Shown here one piece after another: positions 3,625 through 23,061 of a stretch of 64,000 nucleotides of DNA. The translations under genes and the position numbers were made by a program. How positions within the stretch are numbered: the first letter of the stretch is position 1; each line of letters begins with the position of its first letter. The notes below the pieces were generated by a model. The model was not told the origin of the DNA. It saw only the letters and a program-made list of their open reading frames with translations, and searched no databases. Source of the DNA: Aquincola tertiaricarbonis (GTDB taxonomy: Bacteria > Pseudomonadota > Gammaproteobacteria > Burkholderiales > Burkholderiaceae_C); assembly GCF_023573145.1 (NCBI RefSeq), contig NZ_CP097636.1, positions 744,001-808,000 of the forward strand, given 5' to 3'.

Positions 3625-5406
3625 ATGACCCGAGCCCCCGATTCCACGTTCTTCGCTGGCCGCCGCCGCTGGCTGGCCCTGGGCACCAGCAGCCTGATGC
3701 TGGCCGTGCTGGCCGCCTGCGGCGGCGACGATGGCGTCTATCTCGATCCCAACCGCAAGCCGTTCCCGCTGGTGGAAACCACGGTGGCCCAGTTCCATGA
3801 GGCCATGAGCAAGGGCCAGGTGTCCTGCCGCGACATCGTGCAGGGCTACCTGAATCGGATTTCCGCCTACGACAAGGACCCGAGCACCGCTTTTCCGTCC
3901 AGCCCCGCGCTCAAGAGCGTGATCCTGGCCAACCCCAAGGCGCTGGCCGAGGCCGATGCGCTGGACCAGCGCTACTTCGGCAGCGGCCGCCTGGCCGGCC
4001 CGCTGCACTGCGTGCCGGTGATCGTCAAGGACAACGTCGACACCGGCGACATGCCCACCACCGCCGGCTCGCTGGCGCTGGCGGCCAACCAGCCGCCGGA
4101 CGACGCCTTCATCGTCAAGAACATGAAGGCCAAGGGTGCCATCGTGCTGGGCAAGGCCAACCTCGATGAGTTCGCCTTCGGCTTCGGCGGCGCCTCGGCG
4201 CTGGGCGGCCGCGTGGCCAATGCCTACATCCCGGCCAACAGCCCGGGTGGCTCGTCGTCGGGCACCGGCACCGCGGTGGCGGCCAGCCTGGCGATGATCG
4301 GCATCGGCACCGACACCGGCGGTTCGGTGCGTGTGCCTTCGGCGGTGGAAGGCCTCTTCGGCATCCGGCCCACGCTCCGCCTGGTCAGCCAGGACGGCAT
4401 CGTGCCGCTGGCCCACTCGCAGGACACGGCGGGCCCGCTGTGCCGTGCGGTGGCCGACTGCGCGCTGCTGCTCGATGCGATGGTGGGCTACGACGCCAGC
4501 GCCTTCAGCGGTCAGCGCAGCGCCAAGGCCTACGACGCGCCGCTGGTGGCCGACGCCGCCGCCTACGCCACGATGACCCAGGTGCCCAAGAGCTACACCG
4601 CCGAGCTGAAGGCCGATGGCCTGAAGGGCGCACGCATCGGCGTCGTGCGGGCGATGTTCCCCACCGCCACCGCGGCCAACCAGGCCTTCCTCGACACGCT
4701 GGAAGCCGCGCTGACCAGGATGCGCGAAGCCGGCGCCATCGTGGAAGACGTGGTCATCACCGACAACCGCATCGTCATCGGCGCGGCGTCGGCGCCGATC
4801 GAAGGCAACCCGGGCAGCTTCGCCAGCCTGTCGGCCTACGAGTTCTCGGCCGACCTGACGGCCTACCTGTCGTCCTGGCCTTCCACCACCGACCAGCACC
4901 TGCGCAGCACGCAGGAGGTGGCCACCGCGCTGGCGGCCTTCCCGTCGGAGGCCACGGTGCTGCGCTCATTCAACGGCTACCTGGCCAATGGCGCCGCGTT
5001 GTCCGACACCACCAGCGCTGCCTACCTGACCTGGCAGCGCAACCTGAAGCCGCGTGACGCCTACGTGATCCCGCGGGTGCTGGCCGCGCTGGACAACAAG
5101 GACTTTGCCACCGGCACCGCCAAGGGCCCCGCATACGACGTGCTGGTGTACCCGGTGCTGCAGGGCTTCAACGGTGCCAGCGTCAACTCGGGCAGCAACA
5201 ACCGGTTGAGCCCGTTCAGCGGCTTCCCGGCCATGGCCTTCCCGGCCGGCTTCGCCAAGGCCACGGCCAGCGCCACGGTGGCCGAGCCGGTGGCCTTCGA
5301 GATGCTGGGCCGCGAGTTCGCCGAGGGCACGCTGATCCGCCTGGGCTATGCCTGGGAGATGCTGGCCAAGCCGCGCGTGGCGCCGCCCACCACGCCGGAG
5401 CTGTAA
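3625..5406 (+). CDS. Amidase-signature-family hydrolase, probable lipoprotein
   Basis: This 593-residue protein is an amidase-signature enzyme, a family that hydrolyses carbon-nitrogen amide bonds. The Ser-cisSer-Lys triad is visible: Lys135 in VPVIVKDNVDT, the cis serine at 210 in SPGGSSSGTG and the nucleophile Ser234 in DTGGSVRVPS, with the spacing usual for the family. The N-terminus has a double arginine, a hydrophobic stretch and a lipobox-like LAAC with cysteine near residue 33, so it is probably exported and membrane-anchored, which is less common than the cytoplasmic form. The start ATG at 3625 is the first in frame and precedes the signal. The gene stands alone, 114 bases upstream of the PhoX gene. 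The substrate is unknown; neither gene order nor length (longer than GatA) suggests the tRNA amidotransferase. Confidence 0.88.
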   Translation: MTRAPDSTFFAGRRRWLALGTSSLMLAVLAACGGDDGVYLDPNRKPFPLVETTVAQFHEAMSKGQVSCRDIVQGYLNRISAYDKDPSTAFPSSPALKSVILANPKALAEADALDQRYFGSGRLAGPLHCVPVIVKDNVDTGDMPTTAGSLALAANQPPDDAFIVKNMKAKGAIVLGKANLDEFAFGFGGASALGGRVANAYIPANSPGGSSSGTGTAVAASLAMIGIGTDTGGSVRVPSAVEGLFGIRPTLRLVSQDGIVPLAHSQDTAGPLCRAVADCALLLDAMVGYDASAFSGQRSAKAYDAPLVADAAAYATMTQVPKSYTAELKADGLKGARIGVVRAMFPTATAANQAFLDTLEAALTRMREAGAIVEDVVITDNRIVIGAASAPIEGNPGSFASLSAYEFSADLTAYLSSWPSTTDQHLRSTQEVATALAAFPSEATVLRSFNGYLANGAALSDTTSAAYLTWQRNLKPRDAYVIPRVLAALDNKDFATGTAKGPAYDVLVYPVLQGFNGASVNSGSNNRLSPFSGFPAMAFPAGFAKATASATVAEPVAFEMLGREFAEGTLIRLGYAWEMLAKPRVAPPTTPEL

Positions 5407-5427
5407 GCCGGCTGTCCGTGCAGGGGC

Positions 5428-5467
5428 GTGTCATGCGTTGGTCACACGCATGTCACGTCCCTTTCAT
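5428..5467 (+). promoter_or_regulatory. Tandem Pho box (PhoB operator) upstream of phoX
   Basis: Four seven-base half-sites follow one another at an exact 11-base pitch: GTGTCAT (5428), TGGTCAC (5439), ATGTCAC (5450) and CTTTCAT (5461), each separated by four bases. This matches the known PhoB operator, direct repeats related to CTGTCAT with four-base spacers. The array ends about 53 bases before the TTG start of the PhoX-type phosphatase, which fits activation under phosphate limitation. The half-sites are seen in the sequence; PhoB binding is inferred from the family of operators. Confidence 0.75.
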
Positions 5468-5520
5468 CGTCGGCCGAGAACATCGCGGGCTTGTCTGCCC
5501 TAGCACCCGCGAGGTTTTCC

Positions 5521-7770
5521 TTGATCAAGCCGAACGACTACGAACTGCGCTACGTCGACCCCGATACCGTCGACCACAACCCCACCCGCAACGCCAGCTT
5601 TGACACGGTGCTGCAGGCGCGGCTGTCGCGCCGCTCCATCCTGCGCGGCAGCATCGGCACGGCCGCCACCGCGCTGCTGGGCGGCATCGGCCTGTCGGCC
5701 TGCGGCAGCGACAGCGACGACGACACCCCGCAGATGGTGACGGCGCTGTCTTTCACCCCCGTGGCCAAGAGCGTGGCCGACGTCTGCAGCGTGCCCACCG
5801 GCTACACGGCCACCGTGATCTACGCGCTGGGTGACCCGCTGACCGCCAGCACCACCGCCTACAAGAACGACGGCACCGACGGCGACTTCGACAACCGCGC
5901 CGGCGATCACCACGACGGCATGGAGTACTTCGGCCTGTCGTCCGACGGCACCCGCCGCGACCCCAACGGCTCCGACCGTGGCCTGCTGGCCATGAACCAC
6001 GAAGCCACCAGCCACGCCGGCAACGAGCGCGCATCGGCCTTCGTGCATGCCAACGGCGGCACCAACACGCTGCCGCGCCCGGCCGCCGAAATCGACCGCG
6101 AAGTGCCGCTGCACGGGGTGTCGATCGTGGAGGTGCGCAAGACCAACGGTGTCTTCGGCACCGTGCAATCCTCTGGCTACAACCGCCGCATCACGCCGCT
6201 CACCCCGGTGGAGCTGTCCGGCGCCGCCCGCGGCAACGCGCTGATGAAGACCCGCTTCTCCACCACGGGCACCAGCGCCCGCGGCACGCTGAACAACTGC
6301 GGCACCGGCATCACGCCCTGGGGCACGCTGCTCACCGGCGAAGAGAACTGGGCCGGCTACTTCTTCCGCTCCAGCACCGACAACGCGGCCCGCGGCGACA
6401 AGAGCGTGACTTCGCTCAACCGCTACGGCCGCACGCAGGGCTCGGCCAGCCGCCACGGCTGGGAAACCGGCGGTACCGACGACAAGTACGTGCGCTGGAA
6501 CATCAGCAAGACGGGCACCTCGGCCGACGGCAGCGACGACTACCGCAACGAGCTGAACACCTTCGGCTACCTGGTCGAGATCGACCCGTACGACAAGACC
6601 AAGGCCATCAAGAAGCGCACCTCGCTGGGCCGCTTCGCGCACGAGAGCGCCGCCTTCAGCAAGCTGGTGGAAGGCAAGCCGCTGGCCGTGTACATGGGCG
6701 ACGACTCGCGCGGCGAGTACATCTACAAGTGGGTGTCGGCCGCCAACTGGGCCGCCGCCGATGCCAACGCCAGCGACCGCGTGGCCGTGGGCGACAAGTA
6801 CCTGGACAGCGGCAAGCTGTATGTGGCCAAGTTCAATGCCGATGGAAGCGGCACCTGGATCGAGCTGTCGATCGACAACGCCACCATCAAGAACTACACC
6901 GGCTACGCCTTTGCCGACCAGGCCGACGTGGTGGTGAATGCCCGCCTGGCGGCCGACGCCGTGGGCGCCACCAAGATGGACCGCCCGGAGTGGTGCGCCA
7001 CGCACCCCACCACCGGCGAGGTGTACTTCACCCTCACCAACAACAGCAACCGCAAGGTGGACGCCAGCGGCAGCTCGCAGATGGTGGTGGACGCGGCCAA
7101 CCCGCGCGCCTACACCGACAGCTACGCCGGCGGTGCCGCCGGCTCGCCGGGCAACCTCAACGGCCACATCGTGCGCGTGGCCGAGACCGGCGGCGACGCC
7201 GCGGCCACCGGCTTCAAGTGGGACGTGTACCTGTTTGGTGCCGAGTCGGGTGCCGATGCCGGCAAGGTGAACCTGTCGTCGCTGACCGCCGACCAGGACT
7301 TCTCCAGCCCCGACGGCCTGTGGTTCAGCAAGGCCAGCGGCCTGTGCTGGATCCAGACCGACGACGGCGCCTACACCGACGTCACCAACTGCATGATGCT
7401 GGCCGGCATCCCTGGCACGGTGGGCGACGGCGCCGCCAAGACGCTGGCCTACACCAAGGCCGACGGCAGCGCGCTGAACGTGACCACCTACGTGGGCAAG
7501 ACGCCGACCCCGGCGACGCTGCGCCGCTTCCTGGTGGGCCCGAAGGACTGCGAGCTGACCGGCTGCACCGAGACGCCGGACGGCCAGACGCTGTTCGTCA
7601 ACATCCAGCACCCGGGTGAGACCATCACCTCCGCCAACGTGGCGGACCCCAGCAAGTACCTGAGCCACTGGCCGGGCAACGCCGGCTACGGCGCCGGCGG
7701 CACCACCGCCCGCCCGCGCTCGGCCACCGTCGCCATCACCAAGAACGGTGGCGGCGTGGTGGGCAGCTGA
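5521..7770 (+). CDS. phoX: PhoX-type alkaline phosphatase (DUF839 family), Tat-exported
   Basis: The 749-residue product belongs to the PhoX/DUF839 family of Ca2+/Fe3+-dependent phosphatases that release phosphate from organic phosphoesters in the periplasm or outside the cell. A twin-arginine signal, LSRRSILRGSIG, begins near residue 36 and is followed by a hydrophobic stretch ending LSACGSD. Family hallmarks include a MNHEATSHAG-like segment, GTLLTGEENWAGYF, GRFAHESAAFSK and GDDSRGEYIYKW. The TTG at 5521 is preferred as start because GCGAGG lies just upstream and no ATG fits; a frame open to 5428 would run through the Pho box. Upstream is a four-unit Pho box and downstream a clear terminator, so it forms a single-gene transcript. 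The long N-terminus before the RR motif is usual for proteobacterial PhoX. Confidence 0.92.
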   Translation: MIKPNDYELRYVDPDTVDHNPTRNASFDTVLQARLSRRSILRGSIGTAATALLGGIGLSACGSDSDDDTPQMVTALSFTPVAKSVADVCSVPTGYTATVIYALGDPLTASTTAYKNDGTDGDFDNRAGDHHDGMEYFGLSSDGTRRDPNGSDRGLLAMNHEATSHAGNERASAFVHANGGTNTLPRPAAEIDREVPLHGVSIVEVRKTNGVFGTVQSSGYNRRITPLTPVELSGAARGNALMKTRFSTTGTSARGTLNNCGTGITPWGTLLTGEENWAGYFFRSSTDNAARGDKSVTSLNRYGRTQGSASRHGWETGGTDDKYVRWNISKTGTSADGSDDYRNELNTFGYLVEIDPYDKTKAIKKRTSLGRFAHESAAFSKLVEGKPLAVYMGDDSRGEYIYKWVSAANWAAADANASDRVAVGDKYLDSGKLYVAKFNADGSGTWIELSIDNATIKNYTGYAFADQADVVVNARLAADAVGATKMDRPEWCATHPTTGEVYFTLTNNSNRKVDASGSSQMVVDAANPRAYTDSYAGGAAGSPGNLNGHIVRVAETGGDAAATGFKWDVYLFGAESGADAGKVNLSSLTADQDFSSPDGLWFSKASGLCWIQTDDGAYTDVTNCMMLAGIPGTVGDGAAKTLAYTKADGSALNVTTYVGKTPTPATLRRFLVGPKDCELTGCTETPDGQTLFVNIQHPGETITSANVADPSKYLSHWPGNAGYGAGGTTARPRSATVAITKNGGGVVGS

Positions 7771-9999: not shown

Positions 10000-12861
10000 A
10001 TGACCGAGACGACCAACGCCCCCGGCAACGACGCCCACCGCACGCCCGAGCCCGACGTGGCGCCGCCCACCACGCTGCTGCTGGTGGACGGCAGCAGCTA
10101 CCTGTACCGCGCCTACCATGCGCTGCCCGACCTGCGCGGGCCCGACAATTTCCCCACCGGCGCACTGCACGGCATGGTGTCCATGCTCACCCGGCTGCGG
10201 GCGCAGTTCCCGGCGGTGCATGCCGCCTGCGTGTTCGACGCGCCGGGCAGGACCTTCCGCGACGACCTGTACCCCGAGTACAAGGCCAACCGCGCCAGCA
10301 TGCCCGAGCCGCTGGCGCAGCAGATCAAGCCCATCCACGAGGTGGTGCGGCTGCTGGGCTGGCCGGTGCTGGAGGTGCCCGGCATCGAGGCCGACGACGT
10401 CATCGGCACGCTGGCGCGCACCGTGGCCGCGCGCGGCGGCAAGGTGGTGATCTCCACCGGCGACAAGGACCTGGCGCAGCTGGTGGACGAGCAGGTGGTG
10501 CTGATCAACACCATGAGCAACGAGTCGCTGGACATCGCCGGCGTGCAGGCCAAGTTCGGCGTGCCGCCCGGGCGCATCGTCGACTACCTGACGCTGATCG
10601 GCGACACCGTGGACAACGTGCCCGGCGTCGAGAAGGTGGGCCCCAAGACCGCCGCCAAGTGGCTGGCCGAGCACGGCTCGCTGGACGGCGTGGTGGCCGC
10701 GGCCAGCGGCATCAAGGGCGTGGCCGGCGAGAACCTGCGCAAGGCCCTGGACTGGCTGCCGATGGGCCGCGAGCTGGTGACCATCCGCACCGATTGCGAC
10801 CTGGCCGCCCACGTGGCCGGCTGGCCGGGCGAAGACGCGATGACCGCGCTGCACTTCGCCGAGCCCGACAACGCGGCGCTGCTCGACTTCTACGCCCGCT
10901 ACGGCTTCAAGACGCTGCGCCGCGAGCTGGAAGCGCGCATGTCGGCCACGCGGCAGATGTTCGCCTCGGCCGACGAGCCCTTTGCGGAGGGCCGCGGCGA
11001 CCCGGCGCAGCCCGCGGTGGGCGCGGGCGAGTCCGCCAAGGTGGAGGGCAGCTACGAGACCGTGACCACCTGGGAGCGGCTGGACCACTGGCTGCAGCGG
11101 CTGCAGGCCGCGCCGCTGGCGGCGCTGGACACCGAGACCGATTCGCTGGACCCGATGCATGCGCGCATCGTCGGCATCAGCTTCGCGTTGCAGGCGCATG
11201 AGGCGGCCTACGTGCCGCTGGCCCACAACTACGCCGACGCGCCCGACCAGCTGCCGCTGGACGAGGTGCTGGCCCGGCTGAAGCCCTGGCTGGAGGACGC
11301 CGCCGCCGGCAAGATCGGCCAGAACGTCAAGTACGACACCCACGTCCTGGCCAACCATGGCATCCATGTGCGCGGCTGGCGCCACGACACGCTGCTGCAG
11401 AGCTATGTGCTGGAGGCTCACCTCACCCACAGCCTGGAAAAGCTGGCCGACCGCCACCTGGGCCGCAAGGGCCTGAGCTACGAGGACATCTGCGGCAAGG
11501 GCGCCAAGCAGATCCCGTTCGCGCAGGTGGACGTGCAGACCGCCACCACCTACAGCGGCGAAGACAGCGAGATGGTGCTGGACCTGCACCGGGTGCTGTG
11601 GCCGCAGATCGAGCAGCAGCCGGCGGCCGCCCCCGGCCTGCGCTACGTGTACGAGCAGATCGAGCTGCCCACCAGCGAGGTGCTGCAGCGCATCGAGCGC
11701 CACGGCGTGCTGGTGGACGCGGCCGCGCTGGCGCGCCAGAGCCAGCAGCTGGCCGAACGCATGATGGCGCTGGAGCAGGAGGCCTACGAGATCGCCGGCC
11801 AGCCCTTCAACCTGGGCAGCCCCAAGCAGATCGGCGAGATCCTGTTCAACCGCCTGGGCCTGCCGGTGCAGAAGAAGACCGCCAGCGGCGCACCGTCCAC
11901 CGACGAAGAGGTGCTGGAGAAGCTGGCCGCCGACTACCCGCTGCCGGCCCGGCTGCTGGAGCACCGCAGCCTGTCCAAGCTCAAGGGCACCTACACCGAC
12001 AAGCTGCCGCTGATGATCAACCCCAACACCGGCCGCGTGCACACCAACTATGCGCAGGCGGTGGCGGTGACGGGCCGGCTGTCCAGCAACGACCCCAACC
12101 TGCAGAACATCCCCATCCGCACGCCCGAGGGCCGGCGCGTGCGCGAGGCCTTCATTGCGCCCGAAGGCCATGTGATCGCCAGCGCCGACTACTCGCAGAT
12201 CGAGCTGCGCATCATGGCCCACATCAGCGAAGACCCCGGCCTGCTGGCCGCTTTTGCCGAGGGCCGCGACGTGCACCGGGCCACCGCGGCCGAGGTGTTC
12301 GGCGTGGCGCTGGACCAGGTGCGCAACGAGCAGCGCCGCTATGCCAAGGTCATCAACTTCGGGCTGATCTACGGCATGGGCGCCTTCGGCCTGGCCAGCA
12401 ACCTGGGCATCGACCAGAAGGCGGCCAAGAACTACATCGACCGCTATTTCGACCGCTTTGCTGGCGTCAAGCGCTACATGGATGAGACCCGCGCCAGCGC
12501 CGCCGAACGCGGCTATGTGGAAACGCTGTTCGGCCGCCGCATCGTGCTGCCCGAGATCCAGGGCGGCAGCGGCCCGCGCCGGGCCGCGGCCGAGCGCCAG
12601 GCCATCAATGCGCCGATGCAGGGCACCGCGGCCGACCTGATCAAGCTGGCGATGATCGCGGTGCAGGCCGAGATCGACCGCAGTGCCAAGGCCACCCGCA
12701 TCGTGATGCAGGTGCATGACGAACTGGTGTTCGAGGTGCCCGAGGCCGAGGTGGACTGGGTGCGCACCGAGGTGCCGCGCCTGATGGCCGGCGTGGCGCA
12801 GCTCAAGGTGCCCTTGCTGGCGGAAGTCGGACTGGGTCCGAACTGGGACAAGGCCCACTGA
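10000..12861 (+). CDS. polA: DNA polymerase I
   Basis: The 953-residue product has all three domains of DNA polymerase I, which fills gaps and removes primers during repair and lagging-strand synthesis. The 5' nuclease domain (about 25-310) opens with LLLVDGSSYLYRAYHAL and contains EADDVIGTLA and STGDKDLAQLV. The proofreading domain is intact, with the DTETD motif at residues 377-381. The polymerase domain has motif A, DYSQIELR, with Asp730, the O-helix segment RRYAKVINFGLIYG and motif C, VHDELVFE, with His906-Asp907. The ATG at 10000 puts the nuclease motif about 28 residues in; longer frames upstream lie over the divergent DUF2782 gene. It appears to be a single-gene transcript. Confidence 0.98.
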   Translation: MTETTNAPGNDAHRTPEPDVAPPTTLLLVDGSSYLYRAYHALPDLRGPDNFPTGALHGMVSMLTRLRAQFPAVHAACVFDAPGRTFRDDLYPEYKANRASMPEPLAQQIKPIHEVVRLLGWPVLEVPGIEADDVIGTLARTVAARGGKVVISTGDKDLAQLVDEQVVLINTMSNESLDIAGVQAKFGVPPGRIVDYLTLIGDTVDNVPGVEKVGPKTAAKWLAEHGSLDGVVAAASGIKGVAGENLRKALDWLPMGRELVTIRTDCDLAAHVAGWPGEDAMTALHFAEPDNAALLDFYARYGFKTLRRELEARMSATRQMFASADEPFAEGRGDPAQPAVGAGESAKVEGSYETVTTWERLDHWLQRLQAAPLAALDTETDSLDPMHARIVGISFALQAHEAAYVPLAHNYADAPDQLPLDEVLARLKPWLEDAAAGKIGQNVKYDTHVLANHGIHVRGWRHDTLLQSYVLEAHLTHSLEKLADRHLGRKGLSYEDICGKGAKQIPFAQVDVQTATTYSGEDSEMVLDLHRVLWPQIEQQPAAAPGLRYVYEQIELPTSEVLQRIERHGVLVDAAALARQSQQLAERMMALEQEAYEIAGQPFNLGSPKQIGEILFNRLGLPVQKKTASGAPSTDEEVLEKLAADYPLPARLLEHRSLSKLKGTYTDKLPLMINPNTGRVHTNYAQAVAVTGRLSSNDPNLQNIPIRTPEGRRVREAFIAPEGHVIASADYSQIELRIMAHISEDPGLLAAFAEGRDVHRATAAEVFGVALDQVRNEQRRYAKVINFGLIYGMGAFGLASNLGIDQKAAKNYIDRYFDRFAGVKRYMDETRASAAERGYVETLFGRRIVLPEIQGGSGPRRAAAERQAINAPMQGTAADLIKLAMIAVQAEIDRSAKATRIVMQVHDELVFEVPEAEVDWVRTEVPRLMAGVAQLKVPLLAEVGLGPNWDKAH

Positions 12862-12874
12862 AATCACGCCTTCA

Positions 12875-12903
12875 AGCGGCGCCCGCGGCCGCTGCTTGAG
12901 CCG
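12875..12903 (+). terminator. Possible hairpin terminator after polA
   Basis: Shortly after the polA stop, TCAAGCGGC and GCCGCT-GCTTGA can pair with one bulged base around a short GC-rich loop. There is no T run after the stem, so it would be a weak or Rho-assisted terminator. The structure was judged by eye. Confidence 0.3.
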
Positions 12904-12924
12904 GAACAGAGATGTAAACGGAGT

Positions 12925-12950
12925 GTTACTCGCGGGAACCGAGTTGTAAC
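12925..12950 (+). promoter_or_regulatory. Dyad upstream of the lipoprotein-TpsB-TpsA operon
   Basis: GTTACTCG (12925-12932) and CGAGTTGTAAC (12940-12950) form an inverted repeat with one bulged T, and a further TGTAA lies just upstream near 12914. It sits about 140 bases before the lipoprotein start, in the only gene-free stretch ahead of the operon (12862-13086), so it may be an operator. The rest of the stretch shows nothing clear. Confidence 0.3.
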
Positions 12951-13086
12951 AGCAGGCCGAAGATCCTCGGGTCGCCAGAGCGTGCGTGCTGCAGCGCTGG
13001 CCTGACGCCAAGATCGGGCCGGTTGTTCGTTGCCTTCGCGAAGTACAGCCGCCCGGAGCATCACAACGCTTCGAGGATTGCTGTAC

Positions 13087-16000
13087 ATGACCATCTCGCA
13101 CGCGGTCCGGGTCCGCCTGGTCGCCGTCGCCGTCAGCGCATTGCTGGCGGCCTGCGGTGGCGGTGGCGGCGGCGCAGAAACGCCGACCCCCACCAGCCCC
13201 ACCGACACCGGCACCGTCTCCCAGGGCGTCGACATCACCAACGTCACCACCGCGCAGGTGGAGGCGGCCAAGGCCCAGAAGCACTTCGCGGCGCTGGGCG
13301 TGCTCGTCGGCGCCAAGGTCGAGGTGCGTGATGCCTTCGACAAGTCGGGCACCGTGCTCTACGAGACGGTGACCGACGACAACGGGCAGTACACCGTCAC
13401 GCTGCCCGACTATTCCAAGTACGCGTTCTTCCGCGTCACCGTCTCGGGCGGCAATGACTGGGACGTCAACGACACCGGCACCCGCGACGCCACGCCGACG
13501 CCCTTCAAGGGCGAGATCAACGCCCTGGTGGACGCCAGCGACCTGCTCAACGGCTCGGTGCGGGTGACCATGCTCAGCGATGCGGCCTACCGCCTCATCG
13601 GCGGCGACCTGACGCGCTTCGACGCCAGCTCGCTGAACATCGAGCTCAACCGCGTGGCCGGCCTGCTGATGAAGCGCAGCCTGGGCAATGCCAACGCCGC
13701 AGCGGTGTCGTCCGACCTGCTGCAGTTCGACGCCACCCGCACCGAGCACCGCGATGCGCTGGCCTTTGCCTTCACCGAGCTGCAGCAGCCGCTGGGTGGC
13801 GATGCCAACCAGCGCTCGCTGCTGCAGAAGTACCACGCGGGCGAAACCACCGAAATGGCCGCCGCGTGGCGCCAGATGACCAGCACGCTGGGCGTGGCCA
13901 AGAGCCTGTCGGCCGAGATCGACCGCAACACGGTGAAGTTCCAGGCCGGCGTCACCGGCGTGGGCAGCATCACCGGCAGCCCCTTGCCCAATGGCAGCTA
14001 CGGCGAAGCGAAGGAGCCCTACAGCACCGTGCTGCCGCGTGACGGCAGCACCGTCAACCTGACCGCCGCCGAGATCGACGGCAACTGGCAGTTCCATTCG
14101 TGGACGGGTTGCAAGCAGGTGGTGGGCACCCGCTGCGAGCTGGAGCTGTCTGCCGACGTGACCGCGATCGCCCGCTTTGCGCTGAAGGAAGCCAAGGTCA
14201 ATGCCGAGGTCACCTCGCTGGGCCGCATCGCCCCGCAGGACAGCGTCACCGGCATCCGCTTCAATGCCGACGGCACCGCCACCATCGTCTCGCGCGATCC
14301 GGCGACCGTGGCCTACCTGAACACGCTGATCGTCGGCTCGTTGGTGCAGACGGGCCATGTCGACCACCCGACGGTGCGCATCAGCCAGATCGTCACGCCG
14401 GCCACCGTGGTCACGGCCAATGCGCCGGAGGCCACCACGGCGCCGATGACCACCATCAGCTTCCGCTGGACGGAAGCCTCGCCGGTGGATGTGTACGAGA
14501 GCATCTCCATCGTGGCCGACGCCACGCCGATGGCCTTCGACGAGGTGCGCGCCATCGAGGTGGGTGACGGCGTCTCGGGCTCGGTGCGCACCGTGATTCC
14601 GGCGCCCGACTTCACCACCAGCGTGGTGGCCGGCTCGGTGCTGGGCACCGCGCCCACTTGGTACGTCACCCTGGCGCCCGATGCGCGCAGCTGCCGCGGC
14701 TTCGGTGCCGACGCGGTGGCGCGTGCGGCGCTGCAGACGGCCTGGGAAGCCTCGCCGCGTGGCTACCCCTTCAACACCGCCGCGCTGGCCAACTGCGTGG
14801 CCACCGGCAACTTCAGCATTGCCGGTGACCTGACCGACTACGTGATGGGCAAGTCCACCGGCGACGTGGACCAGTTCTCCGGCCGCCACGACGGCACCGG
14901 CAAGCTGGCCATGCGCCTGCCCAAGGACGTGTTCAAGTACGAAAGCAAGGGCACCATGCTGGCCAGTGCCGCCGGTGCCGAGGGCGGCCGCAGCGCCGAG
15001 CCGGTGTGGGTCTCGGGCGTGGGGGTGGCGGTGCCGCTGGGCAACAACCTGTTCCTGGCCAGCCGCGAGCGCGAGGCGGGCTTCCGCCTGGTGGCGCTGA
15101 AGGACACGGCCAAGATCACCACCCAGCAGGCGGTGCGCCAGGCGCGCAGCGACTGCGCCATGCAGGGCCTGCCCAGCGCCTGCGGCCTGCTGGCCGGGCT
15201 GGAGCGTGAACGCCAGGGCCTGAGCAACGTGGGCATGATCCCGCTGCTGTCGTCGCCGCTGTCGGTCACGCTGTCCAAGCCGGGCACCAACCTCAGCGGC
15301 ACGGTCTCGCTCAACCTCAACATCGACCTGCGGCCCAAGGCTTCGGTCGACTGGAGCCTGCGCAGCCTGTGGATCCGCGCCAGCGCGGGTGCCGACTACG
15401 AGATCAAGCCCGAGCTGGGCCTGACCGCCACCTACGGCAAGACCCCCGGCGGCTTCCGCGTGCCGGTGGAAAGCAAGAAGAAGAAGTTCGATGCCAAGCG
15501 CGCCAAGGAAAAGGTCGGCACCACCAAGGTCCCCTTCAAGAAGACGCTGATCAAGATCGACCTCGGCCGGGCCATTCCGTATGCCGGCGCGGTGCTCGAC
15601 CTGAGCCTGAACCTGGAGGTGGGCGTGGACTTCACCGGCGAAATGTCGGTGACCATCACGCCCACGCTGACGATGGCCGGCGACTTCGGCGTGCGCGGCT
15701 ACTACGAGTGGCGCTGCTGCCGCTCCAACGACCGCGAGTTCTCGGCCTGGTTCAACATGCCTACGCGCCAGCCCGGCATCTCGGGCGAGCTCAAGGGCAC
15801 GCTGGCGGTGGAGCCGTATGCCGAGCTGAACCTGGCGGCCGGCCTGCGCGGCGTGGCACCCGAGGTGGCCAAGGTGTTCGTGCGCGGCGGCGTGATGTTC
15901 CGCGGCGAGGCGGCCACCAGCTTCAGCTACGCGACCTTGTTCCGCGACCAACCCGGCCCCGACACCTGGGCCGAAGGGCGTGTGTTCGGCAACTCGCGCA

Positions 16001-16389
16001 AGTACTGGGAGGACTGCTCGCTCGACACCCGTGTGCGCAATGGCGGCTCCTGCACCTGCGACCGGGACGAGACCCGGCGCCATTGGTGGGGCGGATCGTA
16101 CGTCTCGCGCAAGTGCGTGCAGCGCGGTGATCCGGTGCGCGTGCCGGGCGTGGTCAAGAAGATCCCGCAGCGCTGCGTGAACGAGCCTGAGCTGGCCCTG
16201 GGCGTGTACCTGCACGGCAAGGCGGGCGTGGTCACCTCGTCCAGCAACTTCGCATGGCCCTTCCGCGGCTGGTTCGACTTCCTCAACCGCGAAGTCAACT
16301 TCTTCGACCAGGAATGGCCGATCTGGGAGTACCCCGCCAAGGACAACAGCCCCGATGCCGAACTGGTCGGCTGCAGGGACATCACGTGA
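13087..16389 (+). CDS. Large lipoprotein of unknown function, first gene of the TPS operon
   Basis: This 1,100-residue protein starts at the ATG at 13087 with a short signal ending in the lipobox LLAAC (Cys23), followed by a glycine run and a Thr/Pro-rich linker. Residues about 75-115 look like a carboxypeptidase-regulatory-type beta sandwich (VTDDNGQYTVTLP). Residues about 300-370 resemble a bacterial beta-grasp repeat (WQFHSWTGC, then CELELSADVTAIARF). The last 400 residues are rich in amphipathic beta strands, with a very basic patch (ESKKKKFDAKRAKEK, near 798) and a cysteine cluster near 975-1015 (EDCSLDTR, GGSCTCDRD, RKCVQRG). Its stop overlaps the GTG start of the TpsB gene, so the two are translationally coupled. 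No known family covers the whole protein. A role in presenting or anchoring the secreted TpsA protein is an inference from context only. Confidence 0.8.
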   Translation: MTISHAVRVRLVAVAVSALLAACGGGGGGAETPTPTSPTDTGTVSQGVDITNVTTAQVEAAKAQKHFAALGVLVGAKVEVRDAFDKSGTVLYETVTDDNGQYTVTLPDYSKYAFFRVTVSGGNDWDVNDTGTRDATPTPFKGEINALVDASDLLNGSVRVTMLSDAAYRLIGGDLTRFDASSLNIELNRVAGLLMKRSLGNANAAAVSSDLLQFDATRTEHRDALAFAFTELQQPLGGDANQRSLLQKYHAGETTEMAAAWRQMTSTLGVAKSLSAEIDRNTVKFQAGVTGVGSITGSPLPNGSYGEAKEPYSTVLPRDGSTVNLTAAEIDGNWQFHSWTGCKQVVGTRCELELSADVTAIARFALKEAKVNAEVTSLGRIAPQDSVTGIRFNADGTATIVSRDPATVAYLNTLIVGSLVQTGHVDHPTVRISQIVTPATVVTANAPEATTAPMTTISFRWTEASPVDVYESISIVADATPMAFDEVRAIEVGDGVSGSVRTVIPAPDFTTSVVAGSVLGTAPTWYVTLAPDARSCRGFGADAVARAALQTAWEASPRGYPFNTAALANCVATGNFSIAGDLTDYVMGKSTGDVDQFSGRHDGTGKLAMRLPKDVFKYESKGTMLASAAGAEGGRSAEPVWVSGVGVAVPLGNNLFLASREREAGFRLVALKDTAKITTQQAVRQARSDCAMQGLPSACGLLAGLERERQGLSNVGMIPLLSSPLSVTLSKPGTNLSGTVSLNLNIDLRPKASVDWSLRSLWIRASAGADYEIKPELGLTATYGKTPGGFRVPVESKKKKFDAKRAKEKVGTTKVPFKKTLIKIDLGRAIPYAGAVLDLSLNLEVGVDFTGEMSVTITPTLTMAGDFGVRGYYEWRCCRSNDREFSAWFNMPTRQPGISGELKGTLAVEPYAELNLAAGLRGVAPEVAKVFVRGGVMFRGEAATSFSYATLFRDQPGPDTWAEGRVFGNSRKYWEDCSLDTRVRNGGSCTCDRDETRRHWWGGSYVSRKCVQRGDPVRVPGVVKKIPQRCVNEPELALGVYLHGKAGVVTSSSNFAWPFRGWFDFLNREVNFFDQEWPIWEYPAKDNSPDAELVGCRDIT

Positions 16390-18041
16390 GGCTGCACGCC
16401 CAATGCGGCGCCGCCGCGCGCTGGCGGCGCACGGCAGTGGCCGTGGCCACCTGCGCTGTGGCCGGTGCGGCCCCGCCGGTGGCAGCGGCCGAGCCAGCGC
16501 CGCCTGCCGCCGCCGCTGCCGAGCCCACGGTCACGGTGCAGGCCTTCGAGATCGAAGGCGCCGAACAGGTGGGCTTTGAAGAGCTGCAGGCCGTGCTGGC
16601 GCCCTGGCGCGGCCGGCCGCTCACCCGGCAGGCCCTGGGTGAAGCCGCCCGCGCGGTGGAGCGCCACTACCAGCAGGTGCACCGCCGCCTGGCGCGGGTG
16701 ACGCTGCCGCCGCAGGACGTGACCGAAGGCCGGGTGCGCCTGCGCGTGGCCGAAGGCCGGCTGGGCCGCGTGGTGGTGCAGGCCGATGGCGTGCGCGCCA
16801 TCGCCCCCGAGCGGGCACGTGCGGCCGTAGAGGCGCTGCAGGCCCCCGGCCAGGCGCTGTCGCTCAGCGCGGTGGAACGCGCCACCATGCAGCTGGCCGA
16901 ATGGCCGGGGCTGGAGGTGCGCAGCAGCCTGGTGGCCGGCAGCGGCGCGGGTGAAACCGACGTGGCGCTGGTGCTCACCGACCGCCGCCCCTGGGACCTG
17001 CAACTGCGCGCCGACAACGAAGGCGCCCGCGCCACCGGCCATGCCCGCGTGGCGGCCGACGGCTGGGCCGTGCTGCCCGGTGGCGGTGGCCATGCCGTCA
17101 CCGCCGGCACCATGATCAGCGAAGGCAGCCGCCAGCTGCGCCTGGGCGCCAGCACGCCGCTGCCGGCCAGCGGCTGGCGCGCCTCGGCCTATGGCAGCGC
17201 GCTGGACTACCGGCTGGTGACGCCCGAGTTCAATTCGCTCGATGTCAAGGGCCCGTCCAGCACGCTGGGGCTGGGCCTGTCCTGGGCCATCGATCGCAGC
17301 GCCACCGGCAGCCGCGATGCGTCGGCGCAGCTGGAGCGGCGCTGGTTCCGCAACAAGGCGCTGGACACGGTGCTGTCGGACTACCGCATCGACGTGCTCA
17401 CGCTGCGCTATGCGCGCCTGTGGTCCGACGAGGCCGGTGACGCCCGCCGTGCCTGGGAGTTGAGCCTGGCGGTCGGCGATGTCGACCTGTCCGGCTCGCC
17501 CAACCGCGAGGCCGATGCCCTGACCGCCGACACCGCGGGCGGCTATGCGCTGCTGCGCGGTGCCTGGCAGCACAGCCGCCAGGCCGGTGCGCACGGGCGC
17601 TGGTCGCTGCGGGCCAGCGGCCAGTGGAGCGCGCAGAACCTGGACGTGTCCGAGCGCATGCTCATCGCCGGCCCGGCCGGCGTGCGCGGCTACCCGGTGG
17701 GTGAAGCCACCGGCAGCCGCGCGCTGCTGGGCACCGCCGAATGGCAGCAGGGCCTGGCCGGCCTCGGCCAGCCTTCGCTCACGCTCTCGGCCTTTGCCGA
17801 TACCGGCGTGGCCTGGCAGTACGCCGATGCCGACTTCGCCGGCGCGCCGCCGCGCAACCGGCTGCGCCTGTCGGCCGCCGGCCTGTGGCTGGAGTGGCGA
17901 CCTGCGGCCGTGCCGCTGGTGGCCCGCTTGACCGTGGCACGCCCGCTGGGCCATCACCCCGACCCCACCGCCAACGGCGACAACCAGGACGGCAGCCGCT
18001 TCGGCACCCGCTGGTGGCTCAGCGCGCAATGGTCGCTGTGA
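16386..18041 (+). CDS. Two-partner secretion outer-membrane transporter (TpsB, ShlB/FhaC/HecB family)
   Basis: The 551-residue product resembles TpsB transporters, Omp85-type barrels that move a single TpsA protein across the outer membrane. The GTG start at 16386 overlaps the TGA of the preceding lipoprotein gene (GTGA) and is followed by a signal peptide (RRTAVAVATCAVAGAAPPVAAA). A POTRA_2 domain covers about 55-130 (FEIEGAEQVGFEEL to GRVRLRVAEGRLG). A second soluble stretch leads into the barrel, which begins near 205. The conserved loop motif VRGYPVGEATG is present near residue 437, and the last residue is the C-terminal Leu after an aromatic strand end (WWLSAQWSL), as usual for outer-membrane barrels. 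It lies 52 bases upstream of the presumed TpsA gene. Family assignment is strong; specificity for the neighbour is inferred from gene order. Confidence 0.92.
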   Translation: MRLHAQCGAAARWRRTAVAVATCAVAGAAPPVAAAEPAPPAAAAAEPTVTVQAFEIEGAEQVGFEELQAVLAPWRGRPLTRQALGEAARAVERHYQQVHRRLARVTLPPQDVTEGRVRLRVAEGRLGRVVVQADGVRAIAPERARAAVEALQAPGQALSLSAVERATMQLAEWPGLEVRSSLVAGSGAGETDVALVLTDRRPWDLQLRADNEGARATGHARVAADGWAVLPGGGGHAVTAGTMISEGSRQLRLGASTPLPASGWRASAYGSALDYRLVTPEFNSLDVKGPSSTLGLGLSWAIDRSATGSRDASAQLERRWFRNKALDTVLSDYRIDVLTLRYARLWSDEAGDARRAWELSLAVGDVDLSGSPNREADALTADTAGGYALLRGAWQHSRQAGAHGRWSLRASGQWSAQNLDVSERMLIAGPAGVRGYPVGEATGSRALLGTAEWQQGLAGLGQPSLTLSAFADTGVAWQYADADFAGAPPRNRLRLSAAGLWLEWRPAAVPLVARLTVARPLGHHPDPTANGDNQDGSRFGTRWWLSAQWSL

Positions 18042-18093
18042 GCCCCGCCGCCCCTTCATTCCTTTCCCCTGAATCCCTGCGAGGAGTCGCACG

Positions 18094-21000
18094 ATGAGTA
18101 CTTCTGCGAGCCTGAATACCGCTTACCGCCTGGTGCGCCGCGCCGATGCGCAATGGGTGCCCGTGCCCGAGACCGCCACCGGCCACGGCGCCGCCCGCGC
18201 CGGTGCGCAGCTGGTGGCCCACCTGCTGCTGGCGGCGCTGCCGCTGGTCGCCAATGCCGGCCCGCCCGGCGCCGGCACCTTGCCCACCGGCGGCACGCTG
18301 GCCGCGGGCCAGGCCAGCTGGCAAGCCCAGGGCAGCACGCTGACCGTCAACCAGGCCAGCCAGCGCGCCGTCATCGACTGGCAGCGCTTCGACCTGGGCA
18401 GCCAGGCCAGCGTGGTGTTCAACCAGGCGGCCGGCCGCAATGCCGCCACGCTCAACCGCGTGCTGGGCAACCAGCCCAGCCAGATCCTGGGCCGCATCCA
18501 GGCGCCGGGGCAGGTGTTCATCAGCAACCCGTCCGGTGTCATCTTCGGCGCCAGCGCCCGCGTGGACGTGGGCGGCCTGGTGGCCACCACGATGTCCACC
18601 AGCAATGCCGACTTCATGGCCGGCAACGGCCTGTGGCAGCGCCAGGGTAGCACTGGCGCAGTGGTCAACCAGGGCACGCTGACGGCGGCCGATGGCGGCT
18701 ACGTGGCGCTGCTGGCGCCCGAGGTGCGCAACGAAGGCGTGGTGCTGGCACGTGCCGGCACCGTGGCCCTGGCTGCCGGTGAAAGCGTGCGGCTGGACTT
18801 CGACGGCCCGGGCCTGGCCAGCGTGCTGGTGACGCCCGCAGCGCTGAAGACACTGGTGGACAACCGCCAGGCCCTCCTGGCGCCCGAAGGCGTGGTCATC
18901 CTGTCGGCGCGCAGCGCCGAATCGCTGCGCAGCGGCGTGGTCAACCAGGCGGGCCTGATCGACGCCTCCAGCCTGGTGTCGCGCGGCGGCCGTGTGCTGC
19001 TGGAAGGCGACAGCCTGACGCTGGCCGCCGGCAGCCGCATCGACGCCACCGGCGCCACCGGTGGCGGCACCGTGCATGTGGGCGGCGGCTGGCAGGGTAG
19101 CGGCCCGCTGGCCGGCGCCACCACGGTGGTGATGGCCGAAGGCGCCAGCATCGACGCCAGCGCCACCCGGCGCGGCGACGGCGGCGAGGTGGTGCTGTGG
19201 AGCGACGTGGCCCGCAACGGCACCCGCACCGCGGTGCAGGGCCGCATCAGCGCCCGCGCCGGTGCCGAAGGCGGCGACGGCGGCCGGGTGGAAACCTCGG
19301 GCCACACGTTGGACATCCGCGGTGCCACGGTGGACGCATCCTCCGCCAAGGGCCGCGGCGGCCGCTGGCTGCTGGACCCCACCGACCTGACCATCGATGC
19401 GGCGCAAGCCGCCACCATCGTCACCGCGCTGGAAGGCGGCACCGACACGACGGTGCAGACGGTGGCAGGCGGCAGCGACGCCGGCCACCTGACCGTGGGC
19501 AGCGGCATCCGCTGGACCAGCAGCGCCGACCTGACCCTGCAGGCGGACGGCGACATCTTCGTGCGTGCGCCCATCCTGGCCGAGCATGCCAACGCGGTGC
19601 TCACCTTCCAGTACGGCCAGGGCGCTGTGGCCGCCGGCAACACGGCCGACTACCACGTGCTGGCGCCCATCGGCCTGAACGGCGGTCCCAATTTCGTCAC
19701 CCTCAAGGGCAGCGACGGCACGCCCATCACCCACACCGTGATCAATGCGGTGGGCACGGAAAACGACAGCGGCGGCCTGACGCTGCAAGGCATGCGCGGC
19801 AACCTGGCCGGCCACTACGTGCTGGGCGCGTCGCTGAACATCGGCCATGTGAGCGGCTGGAACAGCGGCGCCGGCTTCACGCCGGTGGGCGACAACAGCA
19901 CGCCCTTCACCGGCAGCTTCGACGGCCTGGGCAATACCCTCATCGGCCTGACCATCAACCGGCCATCGGCCGAGTACCAGGGCCTCTTCGGCAAGACGCA
20001 AGACGCCAGCATCCGTAACCTCGGGTTGGCTGATGTGAGCATCACGGCTTCGGCGCGTGGCGGCGCCCTGGCCGGCGTGGTGGGTGCCAACACGCAGGTG
20101 TCCACGGTGTATGCCACCGGCACGGTGGCGGGCGGAAGCATGCTGGGTGGCCTGGCCGGGTCGCTGTCCAGCGGCGTGGTGGTCAGCGACAGCTACCTGA
20201 GCGTCAACGTCGGCGCCAGCGGCGGCTGGGCGGGTGGCCTGACCGGCGACCAGAGCGGCGCCACCGTGCAGCGCGTGTTCTCCACGGGTTCGGTGAGCGG
20301 CAGCTTCAACGCCGGCGGCCTGCTGGGCGGCAAGAACGGCACCGTCACCAACAGCTTCACCACCGGATCGCTGTACGGCTACAACTTCGGCGGCTCCGAA
20401 ACCAACAGCGGCACCCGCAGCGCCTCGCAGCTGAAGCAGGCCAGCACCTTCGCCAGCTACGACCTCGCCAACGTCTGGACGATCTACGAAGGCCGGACCA
20501 CGCCGCTGCTCAATGCCTTCCTGACGCCGGTGACGGTGACCGCGGCCGCGCAGAAGACCTACGACGGCACGCTCGATGCCGTGCTGGCCGATGCCACGCT
20601 GTCCAGCGAAGGCCTGCGCAACCAGCTGCAGGGCACGCTGGTGTATGGCGGCGGGGCCAACTCGGCCAATGCCGGCAGCTACGCCAGCACCACCGCTTCG
20701 GGCCTGTACTCCGGCCAGCAGGGGGTGCGCATCAGCTATGCGCCGGTGGGCACGCTCACCATTGATCCGAAGGCCTTGACCGTGGTCGGGGCGGCGGCCG
20801 CCAACAAGGTGTACGACCGCAGCACCGACGCCACGGTCAGCGGCACGCTGCAGGGCGTGGTGGGCAGCGATGCCGTCAGCCTGCAGGCCTCGGCCAGCTT
20901 TGCCGACAAGAACGTGGGCACCGCCAAACCCGTGACCGCCACCTTCACGCTGGACGGCGCAGCCGCCGGCAATTACACCGTGGCGCAGCCGACCGGGCTG

Positions 21001-22992
21001 ACCGCCGACATCACCCCGGCCCAGCTGACGGTGAGCGGCGTCACCGCGGCCAACAAGGTGTACGACCGGGAGACCGTGGCCAGCGTCAGCGGCGGCACGC
21101 TGTCGGGCGTGCTGGGCGGTGACACGGTCACGCTGGGCGCCGGCAGCGGCAGCTTCGCCGACAAGAACGTGGGCACGGGCAAGGCGGTGACCGCGGGCTT
21201 CAGCCTGGCGGGTGCCGATGCGGCCAACTACGTGGTGGCCCCGGTCACCGGTCTGACCGCCGACATCACGCCGGCCACGGTGGCGCTGGCCAGCACCTCG
21301 GTGGGCAGCAAGGTGTACGACGGCCAGACCGCAGCCACGCTGAGCGGCGGCGCCCTGACGGGGGTGCTGGGCAGCGATGCCGTGACGCTGCAGGCCAGCC
21401 AGGTGAGCTTCCTCGATGCCAACGTCGGCACCGCCAAGCCGGTGACGGCGCAGCTCTCGCTGGCAGGTGCCGATGCCGGCAACTACGTGCTGGCCGCCGG
21501 TGCGGCCGATGCGCTCACCGGCGACATCACCCGCCTCGGCTCGGTCAGCTGGGTGGGCGGCAGCCGCGGCAGCTGGTTCGACGCCAGCAACTGGGCCGGC
21601 GGCGCCGTGCCCATCCGCGACAACGTGGCCAACGTGGTGATTCCGCAGGGCACGCTGGTGACCGTGGCCGACGGCGCAGCGGCCGATGCGCCGATGCTGG
21701 CCAGCCTGACGGGCGCCGGCAGCGTGAGCGTGGCGCGGCAGGCCTTGTCGGCCAGCGGCGCCATCAGCCTGGCCAGCCTGGCCGTGGGTGCGGGCGGCGA
21801 GCTGGCCGCCGGCAGCCTGACCGTGCCCAGCCTGACGCAGACCGGCGGCCGCATCAGCGTGAACGGCGCGCTGACGGTCAACGGCCAGTTCGCGCAGGTG
21901 GACGGCCAGCTGCGCGCCGGCGGTGCCGCCAGCGTGACGCAGGCGGCGGGCGACCTGTCGGTGCGCCATCTGGTGGCCGGCAGCCTGGTGCTGCGCGCCA
22001 ACGACGGCGCGCTGACGCTGGGCAACGTGGGCAGCGTGGCCGATGCGCGGCTGCATGCCGCGGCCGACATCACGCAAACCGACGGCGGCTCCCTGACCGT
22101 GCTGGGTGCGCTGGACGCCACCGCCGGTGGCGACGTGCGGCTGGCCCAGGCGCGCAACATGGTGGTGGGCACGGTGGCCGTGCAAGGCCGCCATGTGCAG
22201 CTGGTGCAGGCCATCGACGACCTGGTGCTGGGCAACGTGGTGGCCAGCGGCGACCTGGCGGCCACGGCGGCCACCGGCCACCTGCGCCAGGCCACCGACA
22301 CCACGCTGAGCGTGACCGGCAGCACCACGGCCGTGGCCAGCCAGGGCTCGGTGTACCTGATGAACGAGGGCAACCGGCTGGTGGGCACCGTCTCCGCCCG
22401 CGGGCAGGACGTGGGTCTCACCCAGGGCGCGGCACCGCTGGTGCTGGGCACGGTGACGGCCGGCGCCAACCTGGCCGTCAAGAGCGGTGGCACCGTCACC
22501 CAGGTGGGCGCGCTGACCGTGGGTGAGCGCACCAGCCTCGATGCGGTGGGGCAGGACGTGCGGCTGGACCGCCGCGACAACGACTTCACCGGCGCCGTCA
22601 CCGCCCGCACCGGCGCGCTGACGCTGGTGGACGGCAGCGGCGGCCTGCAGCTGGGCGGCGTGCAGACCAGCGGCGCCACCCTGGTGGAGTCGTATGGCGG
22701 GCCGATCAGCCAGACCAGCAGCTTCGCCACCACTTCGGGCCTGCTGTCGGTGTTCAACGCCTGGCAGGACGGCAGCTACACCTCGGTGAGCCTGAACACC
22801 GAGGCCGCGGTGCAGATCAACGGCCAGGTGGCCAGCACCGCCAGTGCTGGCGTCAGTGCGGGCATTGCGCGGGCGCTGAGCGCGCTGTCGTGGAGCACGC
22901 TGCCCACCAGCCTGGCGGCGGCCCAGGACACGGCACGGCCGGCCGACCAGAAGCTGACCCTGCCGGCCACCGTTCCGGTCAAGGCAGAGTGA
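18094..22992 (+). CDS. Two-partner secretion exoprotein (TpsA, filamentous haemagglutinin-like)
   Basis: The 1,632-residue product starts at the ATG at 18094 behind a GAGGAG ribosome site. It opens with an extended signal region (LNTAYRLVRRADAQWVPV, then AHLLLAALPLVANA). The TPS domain follows, with RFDLGSQASVVFNQ, LGNQPSQILGRI and the NPSGVIFG motif recognised by TpsB transporters. A beta-helix-like repetitive body continues, including GLUG-type repeats around residues 655-775 (GGLAG, GGLTGDQ, GGLLGGKN) and three YDG/MBG-type repeats around 893-1145 (each with KVYD and NVGTAKPV-like segments). The C-terminal third is a plain repetitive region without cysteines or a toxin domain. It is probably a secreted or surface adhesin-like filament. 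No contact-dependent-inhibition toxin or immunity gene follows, which argues against a CdiA role. Confidence 0.9.
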   Translation: MSTSASLNTAYRLVRRADAQWVPVPETATGHGAARAGAQLVAHLLLAALPLVANAGPPGAGTLPTGGTLAAGQASWQAQGSTLTVNQASQRAVIDWQRFDLGSQASVVFNQAAGRNAATLNRVLGNQPSQILGRIQAPGQVFISNPSGVIFGASARVDVGGLVATTMSTSNADFMAGNGLWQRQGSTGAVVNQGTLTAADGGYVALLAPEVRNEGVVLARAGTVALAAGESVRLDFDGPGLASVLVTPAALKTLVDNRQALLAPEGVVILSARSAESLRSGVVNQAGLIDASSLVSRGGRVLLEGDSLTLAAGSRIDATGATGGGTVHVGGGWQGSGPLAGATTVVMAEGASIDASATRRGDGGEVVLWSDVARNGTRTAVQGRISARAGAEGGDGGRVETSGHTLDIRGATVDASSAKGRGGRWLLDPTDLTIDAAQAATIVTALEGGTDTTVQTVAGGSDAGHLTVGSGIRWTSSADLTLQADGDIFVRAPILAEHANAVLTFQYGQGAVAAGNTADYHVLAPIGLNGGPNFVTLKGSDGTPITHTVINAVGTENDSGGLTLQGMRGNLAGHYVLGASLNIGHVSGWNSGAGFTPVGDNSTPFTGSFDGLGNTLIGLTINRPSAEYQGLFGKTQDASIRNLGLADVSITASARGGALAGVVGANTQVSTVYATGTVAGGSMLGGLAGSLSSGVVVSDSYLSVNVGASGGWAGGLTGDQSGATVQRVFSTGSVSGSFNAGGLLGGKNGTVTNSFTTGSLYGYNFGGSETNSGTRSASQLKQASTFASYDLANVWTIYEGRTTPLLNAFLTPVTVTAAAQKTYDGTLDAVLADATLSSEGLRNQLQGTLVYGGGANSANAGSYASTTASGLYSGQQGVRISYAPVGTLTIDPKALTVVGAAAANKVYDRSTDATVSGTLQGVVGSDAVSLQASASFADKNVGTAKPVTATFTLDGAAAGNYTVAQPTGLTADITPAQLTVSGVTAANKVYDRETVASVSGGTLSGVLGGDTVTLGAGSGSFADKNVGTGKAVTAGFSLAGADAANYVVAPVTGLTADITPATVALASTSVGSKVYDGQTAATLSGGALTGVLGSDAVTLQASQVSFLDANVGTAKPVTAQLSLAGADAGNYVLAAGAADALTGDITRLGSVSWVGGSRGSWFDASNWAGGAVPIRDNVANVVIPQGTLVTVADGAAADAPMLASLTGAGSVSVARQALSASGAISLASLAVGAGGELAAGSLTVPSLTQTGGRISVNGALTVNGQFAQVDGQLRAGGAASVTQAAGDLSVRHLVAGSLVLRANDGALTLGNVGSVADARLHAAADITQTDGGSLTVLGALDATAGGDVRLAQARNMVVGTVAVQGRHVQLVQAIDDLVLGNVVASGDLAATAATGHLRQATDTTLSVTGSTTAVASQGSVYLMNEGNRLVGTVSARGQDVGLTQGAAPLVLGTVTAGANLAVKSGGTVTQVGALTVGERTSLDAVGQDVRLDRRDNDFTGAVTARTGALTLVDGSGGLQLGGVQTSGATLVESYGGPISQTSSFATTSGLLSVFNAWQDGSYTSVSLNTEAAVQINGQVASTASAGVSAGIARALSALSWSTLPTSLAAAQDTARPADQKLTLPATVPVKAE
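20770..21535 (+). repeat. Three tandem YDG/MBG-type coding repeats within the TpsA gene
   Basis: The codons for KVYD recur at 20806, 21055 and 21310, giving unit lengths of 249 and 255 bases. Each unit encodes a segment of about 83-85 residues with KVYD, a GSDAVTL-like strand, NVGTAKPVTA and an NYVVA/NYTVA-like close. The copies differ at many positions, so this is an old protein-level duplication, though still a possible site for unequal recombination. A fourth degenerate start, KTYDGTLDAVL, lies just upstream. Confidence 0.75.
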
Positions 22993-23000
22993 GCCTGCAG

Positions 23001-23029
23001 CCGGCACGCGGCGCCATGCCGCGTGCCGG
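23001..23029 (+). terminator. Perfect 12-base-pair hairpin after the TpsA gene
   Basis: CCGGCACGCGGC (23001-23012) and GCCGCGTGCCGG (23018-23029) pair perfectly around a five-base loop, eight bases after the TpsA stop. There is no following T run, so termination may need Rho, but the stem is very stable. It ends three bases before the Pho-box-like site of ppk and so insulates the two units. Confidence 0.6.
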
Positions 23030-23032
23030 TGC

Positions 23033-23061
23033 TTGTCACCGATCTGTCGCAGAAGGTTCAT
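23033..23061 (+). promoter_or_regulatory. Pho-box-like operator upstream of ppk
   Basis: TTGTCAC (23033), CTGTCGC (23044) and GGTTCAT (23055) lie at exactly 11-base pitch with four-base spacers, the geometry of a PhoB operator. The first two are good half-sites and the third is weaker. It ends only 12 bases before the chosen ppk start, so the transcript would have almost no leader, or the true start codon lies further downstream. Control of ppk by phosphate starvation is known in other proteobacteria; here it is inferred. Confidence 0.55.

Follow-up and report, generated by a model that had tools for sequence, protein, structure and literature searches.

Type Vb secretion, also named two-partner secretion (TPS), is held to be simple: one pore (TpsB) and one substrate (TpsA). 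FhaC/FhaB, CdiB/CdiA and EtpA are examples of it. According to the available part of PMC5422565, H1-like helices are predicted in most TpsB proteins, and in FhaC the H1 helix is dispensable while the linker is necessary. The available part of PMC7644211 reports that H1 and linker are present in TpsB/CdiB and absent from BamA/TamA. The same part describes one CdiB mutant whose secretion was restored to near the wild-type level once H1 and linker were removed. A lipoprotein has already been linked to such a system. In the portion of PMC3415462 available, the gene 5' of bcpB in B. thailandensis encodes BcpO, a predicted lipoprotein of the outer membrane; in the class described, BcpO measures 73-74 aa. 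According to that portion, its loss abolished autoaggregation and cut the CDI activity, while BcpA still seemed to be exported.

Organization of the locus

The window, i.e. the whole stretch of 64,000 nucleotides of Aquincola tertiaricarbonis DNA that was analysed, carries three consecutive genes on its + strand. The first one (13087..16389) is an open reading frame for a lipoprotein of 1,100 aa without a confident family. It is followed by tpsB (16386..18041) and, after a gap of 52 bp, by tpsA (18094..22992), which encodes an exoprotein of 1,632 aa. The lipoprotein stop and the GTG start of tpsB overlap in a GTGA (16386..16389), with AGGGA 6 nt upstream of the GTG. The observation of the first-pass annotation, a 1,100-residue lipobox lipoprotein with a GTGA overlap to tpsB and tpsA next, was thus confirmed. 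The trio is flanked by the genes of DNA polymerase I (polA, left) and polyphosphate kinase (ppk, right). A strong hairpin (22997..23032, + strand; -34 kcal/mol, z -4.3) was found 3' of tpsA. It is a possible transcript end, though it has no T run, and it was not among the sites of a consensus terminator scan. The promoter scan gave 0 sites, and terminator-like sites appeared at chance rate.

In a genome of the same genus (G001), polA adjoins ppk and the trio is absent. When the window was compared by blastn with this locus (L132), the matches stopped at 12861 and restarted at 23034, with 7 bp between them in G001. This defines a 10,172-bp extra segment (12862..23033, + strand) that holds the trio and ends at the hairpin. 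In G006, 1.8 kb separates polA and ppk, and no match to the trio was found. In G008, G012 and G014 neither polA nor the trio was found in the stretch fetched. The simpler reading is a gain of the trio in the lineage of the window, the alternative being a loss in G001.

The lipoprotein and its family

The reading frame starts with a signal peptide and the lipobox LLAAC (13087..13155, + strand), whose Cys 23 is invariant in all 8 members of the family. The residue at +2, as read from the sequence, is Gly and not Asp. Following the +2 (Lol) sorting rule, Gly at this position points to the outer membrane. The predicted site of lipidation is Cys 23, and the protein would be bound to the outer membrane. 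A Gly/Pro/Thr-rich stretch comes after the lipidated cysteine, and residues 67-163 (13285..13575, + strand) form a possible transthyretin/carboxypeptidase-regulatory-like beta-sandwich. Twelve cysteines outside the lipobox are shared without exception by the 8 members, which fits a disulfide-bonded exported protein. The structure predictions were poor. The window lipoprotein had no match at the curated cut-off in Pfam or NCBIfam, and no Pfam match to the BAM lipoproteins was found for the window protein (E 1) or for the eight members (E 5).

A database search yielded 7 homologues of near full length, with 53-95% identity across 96-100% of the query. In this search of 5.8 billion proteins, the scoring covered the best 7,996 candidates by common words, and a second, alignment-based search returned the identical 7 homologues. 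Among 60 genomes of relatives, the own locus was recovered together with short weak matches in 7 genomes, nearly all of them N-terminal. In the family of the window the lipoprotein occurs in one of 399 genomes, which is the own genome, and 399 genomes of the order gave the own lipoprotein plus 3 weak N-terminal matches. A scan of genome contigs with two short peptide patterns revealed one new locus, L016; when 148 relatives of the L016 genome were inspected, the only carrier was the L016 genome itself. No relatives were found in the plasmids or viral contigs searched. The lipoprotein family looks very rare.

A second locus and the trio as a unit

L016, a locus on a contig in the MAG of an uncultured member of the Burkholderiales, corresponds to the homologue P0009. 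Its three genes follow the order seen in the window, with identities of 53% (lipoprotein), 50% (TpsB) and 46% (TpsA). The junction between lipoprotein and tpsB reads GTGATGATG; from these letters, the start of tpsB may be a GTG that overlaps the lipoprotein stop, like that of the window, or either of the two ATGs just downstream. The neighbours include a DNA alkylation repair gene and, 3' of tpsA, a TonB-dependent receptor gene, and not polA and ppk.

According to the first-pass annotation, the proposal would fail if homologues of the lipoprotein stood mostly away from tpsB/tpsA genes. The gene context was judged for 4 of the 8 members, a small sample, and none of the four lies away. Two members of the eight (window and P0009) stand beside tpsB and tpsA by direct reading. 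For two others, the contig sizes suggest that lipoprotein and TpsB homologue share one contig: P0007 and P0013 (both 23,912), and P0008 and P0014 (both 9,020). P0003-P0006, whose longest contigs are 3.8-5.9 kb, are outside the count. The divergence of both proteins was found to be parallel. For the six pairs among the four loci, the lipoprotein/TpsB identities were 53/49, 62/61, 59/59, 54/48, 53/49 and 65/66% (r = 0.99; the pairs are not independent, and two of the four pairings were derived from contig size). An HMM of the lipoprotein matched at 2 of the 60 tpsB loci screened, both inside the TpsB clade of the window described below. Given two unlike genomic settings and the empty site in G001, lipoprotein, tpsB and tpsA look like one rare cassette, a conclusion that is well supported on few loci. 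A description of the trio was not found in the open PMC literature, a scope outside which most subscription journals fall.

A TpsB clade with a short N-terminus

The window TpsB displayed the POTRA_2 (2.7e-12) and ShlB (1.1e-20) domains and the VRGY motif. Among 7,999 candidates scored, 10 relatives with identities of 46-99% reached an E value of 1e-60 or better. In a quick tree of 67 rows, which left out the window (same as P0002), L156, L153 and L065, these 10 relatives, the window TpsB and L016 form one clade (SH-aLRT 100, stem 0.61) nested inside the other screened TpsBs. The N-terminus of L155, the sister row of the clade, is long and shows no H1-like motif.

The stretch from the signal-peptide end, as guessed by a simple script, to POTRA1 measured 4-22 residues (median 15) in 11 distinct TpsBs of the clade (P0002 and P0010-P0019; two of them are 99% alike). 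Among the other TpsBs, 57 had a readable N-terminus, a count that omits the unreadable L156; their median was 44, and the stretch reached at least 38 residues in 53. The four short ones among them are L028 and L032, both of the genome of the window, and L065 and L153, each with a stop inside the tpsB frame. In solved chains, counted from alignments, POTRA1 begins near residue 53 (CdiB) and 58 (FhaC). As only 4-22 residues precede POTRA1, the H1 helix and the linker seem to be missing from the clade of the window TpsB. A strict H1-like motif was detected in 45 of 55 other TpsBs versus none of the 5 clade TpsBs having more than 40 residues before POTRA1. With a loose pattern, the figures were 47 of 57 versus 5 of 13 clade rows. 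The latter matches fall in low-complexity stretches; therefore reliance was placed on length. A TpsB clade that, judged by its sequences, has no room for H1 and linker is new beyond the first-pass annotation.

The genome of the window (G000) contains seven ShlB-family loci, L027-L032 and the window. L028 and L032, both with a short N-terminus, cluster with each other in the tree, and the screen detected no lipoprotein gene 5' of tpsB in either. The basal clade member P0019 is short as well. The size of its longest contig is not shared by any of the 7 lipoprotein homologues, and no genome encoding P0019 was found among 151 of the class.

The exoprotein

The window TpsA showed a TPS domain (4.3e-37, residues 63-314) as well as YDG and DUF5649 stretches. 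Its best solved sequence relative is EtpA. No cysteine is present in the window TpsA, and L016 TpsA has one, at residue 46.

Genes upstream of other tpsB genes

A total of 60 tpsB loci was screened, namely the window, L016, 6 others of the own genome, 39 of the family and 13 further ones from outside the own genome. The 39 family loci came from 40 of the best-scoring places, L060 (3 kb) being left out. Contig ends truncate some loci, and in L085 the upstream sequence spans only ~0.4 kb. Version 1 of the lipobox detector missed the window and L016, version 2 missed L016, and version 3 found both. This last version flagged L154 (G440), where a plausible lipoprotein gene (272 residues after the Cys, without Pfam match) precedes tpsB; further upstream there is a Sel1-caspase (Peptidase_C14) gene. 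The flags at L030, L066, L068, L072 and L078 were discarded as spurious on the grounds of their codon-position G+C, their small size or their location within another gene.

In L095, L096, L097 and L098 (G343, G278, G308 and G146) the gene immediately preceding tpsB is TPR-CHAT protease-like. CHAT was matched with E 1.1e-64 in L095, and L096-L098 were assigned by likeness on reading. The TpsBs of these four loci have a CxxC where the usual H1 motif stands. In L066 (G319) a subtilase-family gene (4173-5726) directly precedes tpsB. The statement of the first-pass annotation that TPS loci normally hold only tpsB and tpsA proved too strict, in view of these CHAT, subtilase and caspase-like genes near some tpsB genes and of the BcpO precedent in the available part of PMC3415462.

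Discussion

Transporter and exoprotein place the trio among the type Vb systems. The interpretation given in the first-pass annotation found support in part, and the apparent lack of H1 and linker extends it. The reading we favour, tentatively and at somewhat less than even chances, is that of a type Vb cassette inherited and moved as a unit, in which the outer-membrane lipoprotein would be a dedicated accessory of a TpsB without H1. Besides this lipoprotein, such a cassette would comprise an unusual TpsB and a TpsA exoprotein with YDG repeats. Through coupled translation, the pore would be made along with the lipoprotein. The lipoprotein, anchored in the outer membrane and folded with up to six disulfides, may contact the POTRA side of TpsB or the nascent TpsA, and in this way guide, gate or hold TpsA. 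This putative role is modelled by analogy on the lipoproteins that serve BamA, which is also without H1. The observations behind this reading are the two unlike settings, the overlapping or abutting frames, the lipoprotein and TpsB identities that run in parallel, and the TpsB clade without room for H1 and linker.

A strict compensation model, in which the lipoprotein replaces what TpsB has lost, is opposed by the short TpsBs L028, L032 and P0019, and by the data on FhaC H1 and the CdiB mutant. As far as the available parts of PMC5422565 and PMC7644211 go, a dispensable H1 in FhaC and a CdiB mutant near wild type mean that the loss of H1 and linker does not necessarily call for a partner to make it good. 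Furthermore, the TpsB clade is one event, and so its link with the lipoprotein counts as one coincidence.

Alternatively, the lipoprotein could be a surface-exposed dock that holds TpsA on the cell after its exit from the pore, making a two-protein adhesin. We regard this as possible but rather unlikely. It would agree with a large lipoprotein, twelve conserved cysteines and the Gly/Pro/Thr-rich stretch after the lipidated Cys; the TpsAs of the window and L016 both end in short tails, and no anchor family match was obtained in the window TpsA. On the other hand, the cassette holds no gene for surface lipoprotein export, and docking would leave the missing H1 and linker unexplained.

It is improbable, in our estimate, that an independent lipoprotein is merely co-transcribed and travels with tpsBA outside secretion. 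The patchy occurrence of the lipoprotein and the CHAT, subtilase and caspase-like genes near some other tpsB genes would suit such a passenger, whereas the retention of overlapping or abutting frames by two loci ~50% apart, the parallel divergence and the presence of tpsB with all four judged members (of 8) argue against it.

A bolder version of the dedicated accessory is a class of type V secretion with three partners. Here TpsB would have lost the plug helix and the regulatory linker, and the co-made lipoprotein would have taken over gating and substrate hand-over, Bam-like, for one secreted protein. We give this proposal slightly less credit still, and consider it doubtful. The weakest option, that of a BcpO-like periplasmic accessory, convergent and unrelated in sequence to BcpO, that serves the full function of the exoprotein and not its export, could appeal to the phenotype described in the available part of PMC3415462, but it is highly unlikely given 73-74 aa against 1,100 aa and the absence of the CDI gene order here, and it overlaps in substance with the dedicated accessory that we favour.

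A natural TpsB clade short of H1 and linker, and tied at least partly to a large outer-membrane lipoprotein, would be a ready-made case for the function of H1 and linker, and for asking if a separate subunit can replace them. In addition, the lipoprotein family appears to be very rare, and the exoprotein cassette is compact.

Comparison with known systems

As in type Vb systems, the window TpsB has POTRA_2 and the ShlB barrel, and a TpsA with a TPS domain adjoins tpsB. Unlike them, the window adds a large lipoprotein gene coupled to tpsB, and its TpsB appears to have no room for H1 and linker, a feature that is usual and not strictly defining. With BcpAIOB of Burkholderia, as far as the available description goes, it shares a lipobox protein without Asp at +2 whose gene lies immediately 5' of tpsB, but the window lipoprotein (1,100 aa) is ~15 times the size of BcpO, the gene order is another one and no immunity gene stands beside tpsA. 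In contrast to CDI systems, the immunity gene is absent after tpsA, where ppk (window) or the TonB-dependent receptor gene (L016) is found. The BAM complex is similar by analogy, with an Omp85-superfamily barrel without H1 plus an outer-membrane lipoprotein, the latter predicted here; the window differs from it in having a TpsB-type POTRA_2 domain and a cognate exoprotein.
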